The notes under the pieces were generated by a model. It was not told where the DNA came from and searched no databases. It worked only from the letters and a program-made list of their open reading frames with translations. The position numbers were made by a program, and so were the translations under genes. From positions 1 to 34,362 of the forward strand of contig CANJPG010000031.1 in the NCBI GenBank assembly GCA_947476065.1: 34,362 nt of DNA, in the 5' to 3' direction. The stretch is from Fidelibacterota bacterium (GTDB taxonomy: Bacteria > Pseudomonadota > Alphaproteobacteria > Rhodospirillales > Rhodospirillaceae). Below are positions 14,999 to 19,004 of the stretch, one piece after another. Numbering within the stretch: the stretch's first letter is position 1; the number at the start of each line of letters is the position of its first letter.

Positions 14999-16342
14999 CT
15001 AGGTTCCCGCGAGCGTCATGCCGTCGATGCGCACCGTCGGCGCGTCGATGCCGTAAAGCAGGTCGAGGTCGTTCGCGGGCGTGAGGTGCTTGAACATATC
15101 CTTGAGGTTGCCGGCGATGGTCACCTCGTGCACGGGATAGGTCAGCTTGCCGTTCTCGATCCAAAAACCGACGGCGCCGCGGCTGTAGTCGCCGGTGACG
15201 CTGTTGACGCCCTGGCCGACGAGATCGGTGACGAAGAGTCCGTCCTTGATATCGTCCATAAGCGCGGTCGGGCTCAAGGCTCCGGCTTCCAGCCAGACGT
15301 TGGTGGTGCCCGGGCTCGGCGGGCCGCCGGTGCCGCGCGTGGCGTGGCCGGTGGGCGCCAGATTCAGCTGCCGCGCCGAACGCAGATCGAGAATCCAGGT
15401 GGTCAGCACGCCTTTGTCGATAAGCGCGCGGCGTTTATTGGCCAAACCTTCAGCATCACAGGGCTTGGAGCGCAGGCCGCGGTTGCGGTGAGGATCTTCG
15501 AAGATGTTGATGTGATCGGCGAAGACGCCGGTGTTCATGGCGTCCTTCAGGAAGGTCGTGCCGCGGGCGACGGATGAGCCATTGATGGCGCCCAGCAGGT
15601 GGCTGACCATGCCGCGGGCCGCGCGGGCATCGAAAATCACCGGGACTTTGCGGCTGGACACCTTACGCCCGCCGAGCTTGCGCACGGCGCGTTCGCCGGC
15701 CGTGGCGCCAATTTTTTCCGGGCGCTTCAGGTCGGCGAAGTAGACCGCGGCCGAATAGTCGTAGTCGGTTTCCATGCCCTTATCGGAATCACCGGCGATC
15801 ACCGAGGCACTCAGCGACGAACCCGACGAGGAATAGGCACGCACGAAGCCGTTGGAGGCCGCCATGGCCACCTGGGATTTTCCCCACGAGGCCGAAGCAC
15901 CTTCAGAGTTGGTCACACCTTTGACCGCAAGCGCCGCCGCTTCGCAGGCCTTGGCCTGTTCGATCAGCGTCGCCGCCGTGACGTCCTGGTCATCGCAGAT
16001 ATCGAGCACCGGCAGGTTCTTGGCCAGCTGCTCGGGCGCGGCTAGGCCGCAGAAAGGATCTTCCGGCACCGTGCGTGCCATGGCGACGGCGCGCTCGACC
16101 AGTTCCTTCAAGGCCTCGCGTGACCGGTCGGCGGACGAGACGATAGCCTGGCGTTTCCCGATGAGCACGCGCAAGCCGATGTCGCCGCCCTCGGCGCCCT
16201 CGAGCTGCTCCAGCTTGCCGAGGCGATAGGTCACCGAGACGGAGGTGCCGTCGACGACAATGGCATCGGCGGCATCGGCGCCGGCCTTCTTGGCATCGGT
16301 GATGAGGTCGGACAGGATATTGAGCAGGTCGGGCTGGGACAT
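14999..16342 (-). CDS. pmbA: TldE/PmbA metalloprotease-family subunit
   Basis: A 447-residue protein matching TldE (PmbA), the partner of the TldD metalloprotease. The TldD-TldE heterodimer degrades unfolded peptides and matures some ribosomal peptides such as microcin B17. Family landmarks: VTYRLGKLEQLEGAEGGDIGLRV (in pieces at about 34-57), an RKVPVIFDARAARGM block (about 235-250), LRSKPCDAEGLANKRR, the MDDIKDGLFVTDLVGQGVN segment, and a conserved ending with GNLKDMF. The zinc-ligand HExxxH of TldD is absent, as expected for TldE. It lies 71 bp downstream of the Slam gene on the same strand. tldD is not in the window. Confidence 0.92.
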   Translation of the reverse strand: MSQPDLLNILSDLITDAKKAGADAADAIVVDGTSVSVTYRLGKLEQLEGAEGGDIGLRVLIGKRQAIVSSADRSREALKELVERAVAMARTVPEDPFCGLAAPEQLAKNLPVLDICDDQDVTAATLIEQAKACEAAALAVKGVTNSEGASASWGKSQVAMAASNGFVRAYSSSGSSLSASVIAGDSDKGMETDYDYSAAVYFADLKRPEKIGATAGERAVRKLGGRKVSSRKVPVIFDARAARGMVSHLLGAINGSSVARGTTFLKDAMNTGVFADHINIFEDPHRNRGLRSKPCDAEGLANKRRALIDKGVLTTWILDLRSARQLNLAPTGHATRGTGGPPSPGTTNVWLEAGALSPTALMDDIKDGLFVTDLVGQGVNSVTGDYSRGAVGFWIENGKLTYPVHEVTIAGNLKDMFKHLTPANDLDLLYGIDAPTVRIDGMTLAGT

Positions 16343-16413: not shown

Positions 16414-17712
16414 TCAGAAGATCCATGAAAAACCCAGCTCGAAGCGGTCGCGGCTGTAGGCGTAAACCGGGATATTCGACAGCCGCTCGGAATGGATATA
16501 GCTGATGATCGGCGTGAAGCGCCCGAGCGTCGCCAGCGCGTTGGACAGGCTGAGACGTGTGTCGATCTGGGTGTCGTGACGCGTACGGGCGAAGGCCGCC
16601 AGCGGTGCGTCGTAGCAGACCAGTCCCAGTTGCGTGCTGAGATAGCCCGAGAATCTCCACGGCAGGGTGTGGCGATAGATACCGGCGCCTAAGATGTATT
16701 GGGTGTCGCGCAAGGGGGCGATCCGCGCCTGCTCGCGCACGACGCCGGCCACGCCGCGCAGGAAACCGCCGGCCTGGGCATAGGTCAGCACACCGTTAGC
16801 CGACATGATGTTGCCGCTATAGTCGTCGTATTGCGGACGCATGTAGGACTGGTCCTGCCAGCTCAGCGCACCGTTGAAGAGAAAGCGCGTGCCCAGGGGC
16901 TTCTCGCCCTCTATGCGGGCGCCGTAAGCCTCGGTCAGGTTCTTGCCGCCGACCCAGCGGCGGGCGCTGGTGGCCAGCACCGAAATCTCGGCGTTGTTGT
17001 CGAGCAGAAAACGCGGACCGATGTAAAGGCCCAGCTGACGATCGACAAAATCGCGGGTTTTATATTCAGCGTCGTAGAATGTGCCGCCGGCCTTTAGGCG
17101 AATATCGTCGACAATATCCCACTGGTAATTGCCGCTGCCGTTGAGGGCCAGGCCCATGCCGGAGGTTTTGCGGGCACTCTGGTCGATCTGGAAGGGCAGC
17201 CCGAAGATATCCACGGTCTGTGCTGAGGTGGCGACGTTGACGTTGCTGTCGGCGGCGATGCCGGCGCCGAAATCGAAATCCCAGTGCCGCCGCCGTCTGA
17301 GTTCGCCCAGGAAGCCCGAGATGTTGCGCGCCACCGGTGGCGGTACGCCGGCTGCAATGGCGGCGCGGAACTGGCGTTCGGCCTCGCCATCGTCGCCGGC
17401 CAGAAACCGTGCACGCGCCAACTCGAGGCGTACGCGGTTGAGCGAAGGATCACGGGCGAGAATGCGGCCAAAGCGGTCGATGGCCTCGCGGTAGTTCTTG
17501 GTTTCGAAGGCGAGAGTGCCGCGCAGGAAATCGAGGTCGTTGATGTCGACGGCCGTCTCGTCAACCAGGGCCAGAAAACGCCCGGCCTCGGCGGTGTCGC
17601 CGCGCGCCAATGCGGTGCGCGCCTGCTCGATGGCAGGTGAAGGAAAGAGGTCTGTTTGCGCATGAGCGGCGGCCGTCAAGAAGACGGCCGCCAGAACAAT
17701 GTAAAACTTCAT
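16414..17712 (-). CDS. Slam-type outer-membrane translocator (surface lipoprotein assembly modulator, DUF560)
   Basis: A 432-residue exported protein. Residues 1-18 are a signal peptide (AAAHA cleavage). Residues about 25-135 are TPR-like helical repeats (IEQARTALARGDTAEAGRF; NYREAIDRFGRILARDPS; LELARARFLAGDDGEAERQF). From about 143 to the end the protein is made of alternating amphipathic strands: DFDFGAGIAADSNVNVA (about 145-161; the DSNVN motif is characteristic of the family barrel), and a terminal strand ending in Trp-Ile-Phe, a usual BAM-recognised C-terminus. Slam proteins, with their 14-stranded barrel, move specific lipoproteins to the cell surface and define type XI secretion. The gene lies 13 bp downstream of a matching lipoprotein gene. 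Slightly shorter than the neisserial Slams. Family identity is good; its function as a translocator is inferred. Confidence 0.82.
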   Translation of the reverse strand: MKFYIVLAAVFLTAAAHAQTDLFPSPAIEQARTALARGDTAEAGRFLALVDETAVDINDLDFLRGTLAFETKNYREAIDRFGRILARDPSLNRVRLELARARFLAGDDGEAERQFRAAIAAGVPPPVARNISGFLGELRRRRHWDFDFGAGIAADSNVNVATSAQTVDIFGLPFQIDQSARKTSGMGLALNGSGNYQWDIVDDIRLKAGGTFYDAEYKTRDFVDRQLGLYIGPRFLLDNNAEISVLATSARRWVGGKNLTEAYGARIEGEKPLGTRFLFNGALSWQDQSYMRPQYDDYSGNIMSANGVLTYAQAGGFLRGVAGVVREQARIAPLRDTQYILGAGIYRHTLPWRFSGYLSTQLGLVCYDAPLAAFARTRHDTQIDTRLSLSNALATLGRFTPIISYIHSERLSNIPVYAYSRDRFELGFSWIF

Positions 17713-17725
17713 TGGAGCGAAGGAA

Positions 17726-18715
17726 CTACTTCGCTACGCCGAAGGACGTGATCACGTTCATGCCGGGCAGGGTCATGGCTATGGAACCCGCCGCCTCGGC
17801 TGCACCGACACCGTAGAAGGAGCCGCCGAAAGTACCGGTGGATCCGCCCATGGCGAACTGGGCATTGGCGCTATCCACGGCGCGCGCCGTGCCGACGAAG
17901 GTGATGCCGGTGATCTTGCCGGCCGACAAGCTGATGTCGTTGGCCAGGGCCACGCCGCCCAAGGTGCCGTCGTTGGCCATTTTCTGTGCCGTCACGCCGG
18001 TGACCGAACCGGCGATGGTGTTGGCGCTGAAGTTGGCCGTCAGGTTGACGTTGCCGTTAACGGCATACCTGCCCGCGGCGCCGGTGGAGGCAAAGCCGGT
18101 GGTCTTGCCGCTGTAGGACGCGTTGCCTTCGCTCGGACGATCGCCCGCGCCGCCGCCGCCCGGAACGCCGCCGGCAAACACGCCGATCGACTGCACGGTG
18201 CCCGAGACGCTGGTGGTGGCCCAGGTGCCGTAGGTCGCATAGGTCAGTGTGGATGCGGCGAAGCGGCCGGCGAGGTTGGCCGTCGGATTTGACGACGTCG
18301 CGGAGAAAGTGGCGGCCTTAGGAACGGCATAGGTCGTCGAACCGGCGGCGCCCGGCAGGGTGATGTTGTAGCCGGTGGTGGTGGCGGTGATGCTGCCCGA
18401 CGCGGTGGGGGCCGTCGTGCCGGTCAGATCAAAGCCGTCCTTAAAGGTGATGAGCTCAGAGCCCGCGTGTGCAGTAAATAGCACGGTGGTTCCCGGAGTC
18501 AGCGTGTTGAAGGTCAAGGGCGCGGTCGGTGTTGTTGGTGTGACCGGTGTCACGGGCGTTACCGGCGTGACGGGAGTGACAGGCGTCACGGGAGTTGTCG
18601 GTGTGGTCGGCGTCGTCGTAATCGGCGCTGTCGTGCCCGAAGACGAGCAGCCGGCTGTCAAGGCGAGGGCCGTCGTGACAAGCAGGGCAGAGGCGATTTT
18701 TTTGGAGATGGTCAT
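17726..18715 (-). CDS. TbpB-like barrel lipoprotein, probable Slam substrate
   Basis: A 329-residue lipoprotein. The signal peptide ends in the lipobox LTAGC, with lipidated Cys23 followed by Ser-Ser-Ser, so it is not kept at the inner membrane by an Asp at +2. Residues about 28-66 are a Pro/Thr linker containing six perfect VTP repeats (43-60). Then comes a beta-rich, Gly/Ala/Thr-rich domain; its end, GGSFYGVGAAEAAGSIAM followed by SFGVAK, closely resembles the C-terminal beta-barrel (TbpB_B_D type) of transferrin-binding-like proteins and other Slam substrates, in which FYGxxAxExxGxF is the signature. AGRYAVNGNVNLTANFSA (about 214-231) is another strand pair of that barrel. Shine-Dalgarno GAGGA sits 6 bases before the ATG. 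The ligand is unknown; no TonB receptor is adjacent. Confidence 0.8.
   Translation of the reverse strand: MTISKKIASALLVTTALALTAGCSSSGTTAPITTTPTTPTTPVTPVTPVTPVTPVTPVTPTTPTAPLTFNTLTPGTTVLFTAHAGSELITFKDGFDLTGTTAPTASGSITATTTGYNITLPGAAGSTTYAVPKAATFSATSSNPTANLAGRFAASTLTYATYGTWATTSVSGTVQSIGVFAGGVPGGGGAGDRPSEGNASYSGKTTGFASTGAAGRYAVNGNVNLTANFSANTIAGSVTGVTAQKMANDGTLGGVALANDISLSAGKITGITFVGTARAVDSANAQFAMGGSTGTFGGSFYGVGAAEAAGSIAMTLPGMNVITSFGVAK
18518..18619 (-). repeat. Nine-base tandem repeat coding a Thr-Pro/VTP linker
   Basis: An imperfect 9-bp tandem repeat inside the lipoprotein gene (codons 33-66). The strictest part, 18536-18589, encodes six VTP units; flanking units read TTP. Third-position changes differ among units, so it is not a fresh expansion. 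It forms the flexible tether between the lipid anchor and the folded barrel. Confidence 0.9.
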
Positions 18716-18862
18716 AGGAAGTCCTCACATGTTGGTGGGCGCCTATGCCCAGAGATGCACCGTGCCTGCCCCGCCGCGCGTGGGAAGTGAAGAAGGTTTT
18801 TGTGCGGCAGAGACCGGAAATAGGCGGGTCACTAAGCCAACGTAAGTTTTCCATGCGAAGTT

Positions 18863-18936
18863 GCAGGCTCGCGAGAATAAGTTGACACGCCGCGCGTGCG
18901 ACTCGCTGCGCGAGCATCAAACGCGCGGCGACCTGC
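18863..18936. promoter_or_regulatory. Nested inverted repeat between ubiD and the lipoprotein gene
   Basis: Three nested arms are visible: GCAGG (18863-18867) with CCTGC (18932-18936); GCCGCGCGT (18889-18897) with its perfect complement ACGCGCGGC (18921-18929); and CTCGC (18902-18906) with GCGAG (18910-18914) around a TGC loop. It lies 68 bp beyond the ubiD stop and about 150 bp upstream of the lipoprotein start (both minus strand). No T-tract follows on the minus strand, so it is not a standard intrinsic terminator. It could end ubiD transcription in another way or regulate the surface-lipoprotein operon. The rest of 18716-19004 shows nothing recognisable except the lipoprotein ribosome site. 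Confidence 0.6.
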
Positions 18937-19004
18937 GTATTAGTACGTACGATTTTTGTTTAAGTGCGCCGGATGCGGAGATCGCCCATGCCGCGCAACA
19001 GGGC

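Follow-up and report, generated by a model that had tools for sequence, protein, structure and literature searches.

A two-gene locus on the reverse strand of the analyzed DNA (34,362 nucleotides of contig C31, here called the window) very probably forms a self-contained type XI secretion module, in which a Slam outer-membrane protein exports a TbpB-like lipoprotein to the cell surface. The first-pass annotation had proposed such a pair, and both profile searches and the co-occurrence of the two families in related genomes agree with it. Both open reading frames lie on the strand and at the positions that had been given for them (Table 1). The lipoprotein gene (the cargo) comes first and is followed after 13 bases, the spacing that had been claimed, by the Slam gene. 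In the window genome, the Slam and TbpB-barrel families were matched by this pair only.

Table 1. Positions of the Slam-cargo pair and its parts in the window
Feature	Position	Strand	Description
Slam, type XI secretion outer-membrane protein	16414..17712	-	432 aa; SlipAM (PF04575) plus TPR
Cargo lipoprotein	17726..18715	-	329 aa; SPII signal, Cys 23, Pro/Thr/Val tether, single handle-plus-barrel lobe
Cargo residues 23-65: predicted acylated Cys, Ser/Gly, Pro/Thr/Val tether	18521..18649	-	From sequence and codon list
TbpB-like barrel domain, residues 194-329, presumed Slam-recognition domain	17729..18136	-	Pfam match
Intergenic leader, ubiD to cargo	18716..19004	-	Exact 13-base word GGGCATAGGCGCC common to the L002 leader

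Using the SlipAM profile (PF04575), we found that the window Slam matched over the whole profile (residues 144 to 432; profile positions 1 to 288 of 288) with 69.3 bits against a cut-off of 22 (E 5.2e-19), in agreement with the earlier assignment to the Slam/DUF560 family. A signal peptide, judged by eye, covers about residues 1 to 19, TPR repeats lie at about residues 27 to 122, and the C-terminal barrel domain occupies residues 144 to 432. The proposed TPR-like N-terminus was recovered by TPR_19, which exceeded its cut-off in Pfam, and by TPR_Slam at residues 61 to 115 (E 3.6e-8; 34.2 bits, 1 bit below the cut-off of 35.2). Two motifs read earlier from the translation, DSNVN and a terminal Phe, were present, the former at residues 155 to 159. 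All nine members of the Slam alignment (A4), the window protein among them, match SlipAM and TPR_Slam at E <= 0.01, and SlipAM matched none of 14 control genomes. The NCBIfam Slam models gave no match to the window Slam.

The predicted structure of the Slam protein, made from a two-sequence alignment, had a mean pLDDT of 37, with about 19 to 28 per block across most of the barrel part, and its confident part comprised the TPR helices only. Searches of solved structures with single sequences returned TPR and low-complexity matches only, and the Slam profile matched solved structures by its TPR part only, among the best 60 of 92 matches. PgaA-type porins also pair TPR repeats with a barrel, and the protein might be another TPR-barrel exporter of this sort, such as a polysaccharide porin. 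A PgaA cluster was indeed initially drawn into the DUF560 network and then removed (PMC8406197, cited here, like PMC9090332 and PMC12282271, from the available part of its text). We regard this reading as extremely unlikely, since the SlipAM match is whole-length and well over the cut-off, the protein has just 432 residues, and no such glycan synthesis gene was found among the 20 window proteins scanned.

The cargo carries the lipobox LTAGC that had been noted, ending at Cys 23 and followed by Ser at +2 to +4. It matches the PROSITE lipoprotein pattern, which permits the Thr found here at -3. The Pro/Thr tether described earlier is present as a run of TPV repeats, (TPV)n, that are perfect at the protein level and written in mixed synonymous codons; because the codons are mixed, the repeats are not a fresh DNA expansion. 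The barrel signature FYGxxAAExxG was located as FYGVGAAEAAG at residues 300 to 310. Consistent with the claimed TbpB-like barrel, TbpB_B_D (PF01298) matched residues 194 to 327 with 33.6 bits against a cut-off of 26 (E 6.4e-8). In the cargo alignment (A3), 10 of the 11 members, including the window cargo, match this profile at E <= 0.01, while the scan of the 14 control genomes gave two weak matches at E <= 1 and none over the cut-off. The NCBIfam model slam_lipo (NF041636) scored 33.9 bits, well below its cut-off of 80, and the cargo was not assigned to that equivalog.

When the A3 profile, built from the window cargo and ten relatives, was searched against solved structures, TbpB was found at E 5.3e-16, with LbpB and hemophilin lower down; the single-sequence cargo search found no TbpB structure. 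Since the alignment with a TbpB chain of 239 residues (5kkx) spans profile positions 105 to 326, the cargo appears to correspond to one complete TbpB lobe, handle and barrel together. TbpB_B_D matched the window cargo once (one lobe), versus twice in a relative from genome G257, a 615-residue lipoprotein (L042:8526-10373, reverse strand) in a genome with no Slam match. The predicted model of the window cargo, again from a two-sequence alignment, had a mean pLDDT of 38.

Outside the sampled relatives, the best Slam matches in a plasmid collection came from Novosphingobium (34% identity to the N. pentaromativorans Slam). The N. pentaromativorans locus (L120) holds the same pair in the same layout, annotated as "transferrin-binding protein-like" and "surface lipoprotein assembly modifier"; no TonB receptor is among its ten listed features, although the table of genes may not be complete. 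The search of the plasmid collection with the cargo at E 1e-5 gave no match, a result limited by sensitivity, as our own barrel model finds the N. pentaromativorans cargo there. A phage search with the window Slam gave no match. The alphaproteobacterial host that had been suggested received indirect support from the plasmid collection through Slam and through purD, whose best matches were Shinella and Sinorhizobium, but less clearly through UbiD, whose best matches, in Neisseria and E. coli, were closely followed by Shinella. A search for 16S gave no match in the window genome and succeeded in 9 of 14 control genomes.

We then analyzed the distribution of the two families in related genomes. 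Within the order, SlipAM matched 18 of 297 genomes at E <= 0.001, 16 of them over the cut-off. Among 73 genomes of the family, Slam was found in 8, a TbpB-barrel protein in 9 and both in 7 (Fisher p 1.7e-7, uncorrected for kinship). The cargo lies directly upstream of Slam on the same strand, with gaps of 12 to 191 bp, in six of the seven genomes with both genes; the seventh is G303, whose contig stops short of the cargo position next to Slam. The pairing proposed earlier thus recurs, with the cargo-then-Slam order in all six readable loci. In a midpoint-rooted tree, the seven unbroken Slams of the family (that of G300 is cut by the contig end) formed one group (100/100), within which the window Slam grouped with those of L002 and G303 (100/100). 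At the class level, the Slam profile matched 36 of 385 genomes at E <= 1e-20, and 14 of the 39 class loci, counting all places besides the window's own, have an adjacent open reading frame positive by our in-house barrel model, which misses divergent barrels. At two of the class loci (L151 and L152), a barrel-containing, lipoprotein-like protein whose Pro-Thr repeats are very long lies downstream of Slam, and a second barrel-positive open reading frame lies on the opposite side of each Slam.

The coupling of Slam and cargo is not strict, because two genomes of the same genus, G193 (97% complete) and G257 (96% complete), encode a TbpB-barrel lipoprotein with no Slam match, and in G183 a broken Slam was found and no match for the cargo. 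G183 is the only one of the 73 genomes with Slam alone; the remnant (L044:7929-8456, forward strand) has internal stops and matches part of the profile. The barrel lipoproteins of G193 and G257 would suit a reading in which the window lipoprotein stays periplasmic, the Slam-like barrel exports something else and their adjacency is accidental. Such an arrangement is very unlikely given the 7 of 73 genomes with both genes, the constant order in the readable loci, and the fact that known Slams export the TbpB-like barrel domain.

We infer the export steps of the module from known Slam systems. The lipoprotein precursor would pass through Sec, be cleaved and acylated at Cys 23, and be carried to the outer membrane by Lol. 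Slam would then recognize the C-terminal TbpB-like barrel of the cargo, perhaps aided by its periplasmic TPR domain, and pass the unfolded cargo outward through its own barrel. The cargo lobe would fold outside, held on the surface by its lipid and the stiff Pro/Thr/Val tether, and its variable handle might, as a guess, bind a ligand. A targeting role of the cargo barrel is described in the available text of PMC12282271, and that of PMC9090332 reports that proteoliposomes with Slam1 translocate TbpB with Skp as a holdase.

The surroundings of the pair bear on what the cargo may bind. The 20 window proteins scanned, a set that includes the pair and leaves aside shorter or less clear open reading frames, include UbiD, UbiA, TldD/PmbA, diacylglycerol kinase-like, GAF-HD and PurD neighbors, together with XseA, LpxK, GCS2 and deoxyhypusine synthase; no iron or TonB genes were found among them. 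The TonB receptor barrel (PF00593) had no match anywhere on the contig, which extends the earlier remark that no such receptor is adjacent, and 38 matches elsewhere in the genome. The window cargo has one histidine, and several of the 11 aligned members have another residue in that column. Because the contig has no TonB receptor and the cargo a single histidine, the locus does not simply reproduce the layout of heme or transferrin co-receptor loci. Between positions 16300 and 19100, no sigma-70-like promoter was found, and one terminator-like site, fewer than chance expects, lies inside the Slam gene. The searches for Rfam matches and tRNAs found none.

Two roles of the cargo are compatible with the module, and we weight surface binding or attachment slightly above metal or heme capture. 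The cargo may, with somewhat less than an even chance, be an adhesin or polymer-binding surface protein that acts on particles, algae or other cells, in a role like that of NilC or Pls-type T11SS cargo. This would fit the composition of the mature protein (58% Ala, Gly, Ser and Thr), its long tether, the several-fold faster evolution of the cargo compared with tldD and ubiD, and the lack of a metal-uptake gene among the 20 window proteins scanned. Its nearest relative, L002, comes from a record named ErkenSummer_bin-3013; Erken is a lake. These ecological points are indirect, and Pfam matched no adhesin domain in the cargo.

Alternatively, the cargo could be a hemophilin- or TbpB-like co-receptor that binds heme or metal and passes it on to a TonB receptor encoded elsewhere in the genome. 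We consider this conceivable but rather doubtful. TbpB, LbpB and hemophilin are the nearest structures by profile, and the genome holds the 38 receptor matches mentioned above. Cargo genes that do not adjoin Slam, in G303 (L039; Slam elsewhere) and G193 (L043; no Slam match), lie about 5 to 6 kb from TonB receptor genes. On the other hand, receptors are so many that nearby ones may be chance, the window contig has none, and the single histidine is not kept in several of the aligned members.

The closest syntenic locus is that of L002, a metagenome-derived genome of the same genus (the same genome as G299). Its gene order is ubiD, cargo, Slam, a relative of a 217-residue protein on the other strand, and tldD. 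Identity to the window is 72% for Slam and 45% for the cargo. The L002 cargo ends in the same type of barrel (FYGPNAAEAAG), lacks both a tether and any cysteine, and by eye shows a VAAQ site resembling a cleavage site. By the PROSITE pattern, 11 of the 12 cargos checked have a lipobox, and L002 is the sole exception. As a caution, neither Lys nor Arg occurs among the first seven residues of its signal peptide, although the same holds for two lipidated relatives at their called starts. An unbroken frame and a leader partly shared with the window make an error in start codon or frame unlikely. The dN/dS ratios (NG86) between the window and L002 were about 0.25 for Slam, about 0.52 for the cargo, 0.16 for tldD and 0.08 for ubiD, at high dS values of 0.7 to 1.05, and those of Slam and the cargo fit purifying selection.

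These comparisons suggest, with a probability that we put close to but below even, that the cargo at one syntenic locus within the genus has switched between a lipid-anchored, tethered form (window) and an anchor-free, tether-free secreted form (L002), while a Slam of 72% identity was kept. A lipid anchor seems to be optional in the lineage, and one Slam clade may serve both anchored and released cargo, the soluble form coming from one metagenome-derived genome. If so, Slam would be indifferent to the anchor, and the signal peptide alone would decide between display and release. The Slam subfamily would then not decide, contrary to the suggestion of the published split between subclusters 1A and 1B. 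In the accessible text of PMC8406197, most cargo of subcluster 1A is lipidated and has two barrels, and that of 1B has one barrel and is soluble in 97.8% of cases. The mixing of lipidated and soluble cargo as such is already known, since the corresponding text of PMC12282271 gives mixed counts in most architectures; a switch between anchored and anchor-free forms at one syntenic locus was not found in the available parts of either paper.

The interval between ubiD and tldD, where the window and L002 carry the pair, is mostly empty of it in the genus (19 genomes sampled; TldD in 17 and UbiD in 14 at E <= 1e-100). Nine of the 11 readable intervals lack the pair. The two genes lie within about 15 bp of each other in G257 and G183, and are separated by about 0.8 to 1.8 kb, a stretch in which neither cargo nor Slam was matched, in G193, G223, G300, G080, G287, G285 and G302 (in G302 only the end of ubiD is present). 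The G263 copies lie about 13 kb from each other, and this interval was left out of the readable count. Slam adjoins TldD in G303, where the contig ends before ubiD, and the pair of G300 is located on another contig. As most sites are empty and the G300 pair lies elsewhere, the module is intermittently present in the genus and has moved; either loss or gain, with or without a mobile element, could account for its patchiness at ubiD-tldD.

An unrelated putative outer-membrane protein of 217 residues (L002:9306-9914, reverse strand; L038:7040-7693, forward strand) is represented in several genomes of the genus by relatives that lie in the ubiD-tldD interval or next to tldD. It is present, whole or in part, in five of the seven wider intervals (all except G223 and G302). 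Its L038 copy had no Pfam match, and the window has no relative of it at this place.

The window pair is a further member of an already known kind of T11SS, as systems with TbpB-barrel cargo are published for Sphingomonadaceae and Rhodobacteraceae (PMC8406197 and PMC12282271, available parts). Like Neisseria Slam1-TbpB and Slam2-HpuA (subcluster 1A), it joins a Slam barrel with a TPR domain to a lipidated TbpB_B_D cargo. Neisseria TbpB has two lobes and works with a TonB receptor, whereas the window cargo has one lobe, one histidine and a contig without a receptor. The single TbpB-like barrel per cargo is shared with HrpB-HrpC/hemophilin-type systems (subcluster 1B), as is the lack of a lipobox in L002; the window cargo, being lipidated and tethered, differs from the largely soluble 1B cargo described in PMC8406197.

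Among alphaproteobacterial systems, those of environmental Sphingomonadaceae (subcluster 1C in the available text of PMC8406197) are comparable to the window pair. The "Sphingomonas surface proteins" with Pro-Thr repeats likewise combine a Pro/Thr tether with lipidated and soluble members in one group (18 lipoproteins and 12 soluble proteins in that part of PMC12282271); they have several barrels, unlike the window cargo with one. Marine Rhodobacteraceae T11SS (cluster 3) also belong to the Alphaproteobacteria, and some of their loci include a lipoprotein cargo with a C-terminal barrel. Those loci, as described in the same text, carry DUF1194, glyoxalase and thymidylate synthase genes, whereas the 20 scanned window proteins include, of these, a glyoxalase-family protein only, about 4 kb from the pair. 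Searches of the open-access literature found no paper joining Slam, TbpB and alphaproteobacteria, and none joining the full Slam name and Novosphingobium.

A different pairing was observed in other families of the class. At eight loci (L178, L179, L181, L182, L185, L187, L188 and L189), a Slam-like gene has the gene of a FecR-domain protein (PF04773, over the cut-off) as its immediate downstream neighbor; these are 8 of the 19 class loci, out of 39, with a neighbor scanned by Pfam. The Slam-like proteins, identified by our in-house Slam profile, fall into one group of nine rows in the tree (100/100), the ninth being L183, whose neighbor was left out of the scan. Most of the FecR-domain partners carry a signal peptide (by eye). 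A weak C-terminal TbpB- or fHbp-like barrel was seen in L178, L181 and L187 by Pfam, below the cut-off, and in L181, L185 and L189 by the in-house model. Within the genus of the window, G287 encodes a TPR protein (L050:1438-2820, reverse strand) that was likewise matched by the in-house Slam profile but gave no match to PF04575; it groups with L180 in the tree and is followed by a FecR-domain open reading frame cut by the contig end (L050:2-1285, reverse strand). FecR is not named in the available main text of PMC12282271, and the open-access literature searches for "FecR domain" with DUF560 and for FecR with the full Slam name found no paper with either. These FecR-domain proteins may represent a kind of T11SS cargo that has yet to be described.

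All type XI systems verified by experiment belong to the animal-associated cluster 1, according to the available text of PMC12282271, and the window lineage is probably free-living. A compact pair in such a lineage offers a view of the role of T11SS away from hosts. Within one genus, the unbroken, broken, absent and cargo-only states, together with anchored and anchor-free cargo at one locus, amount to a natural test of what Slam recognizes.
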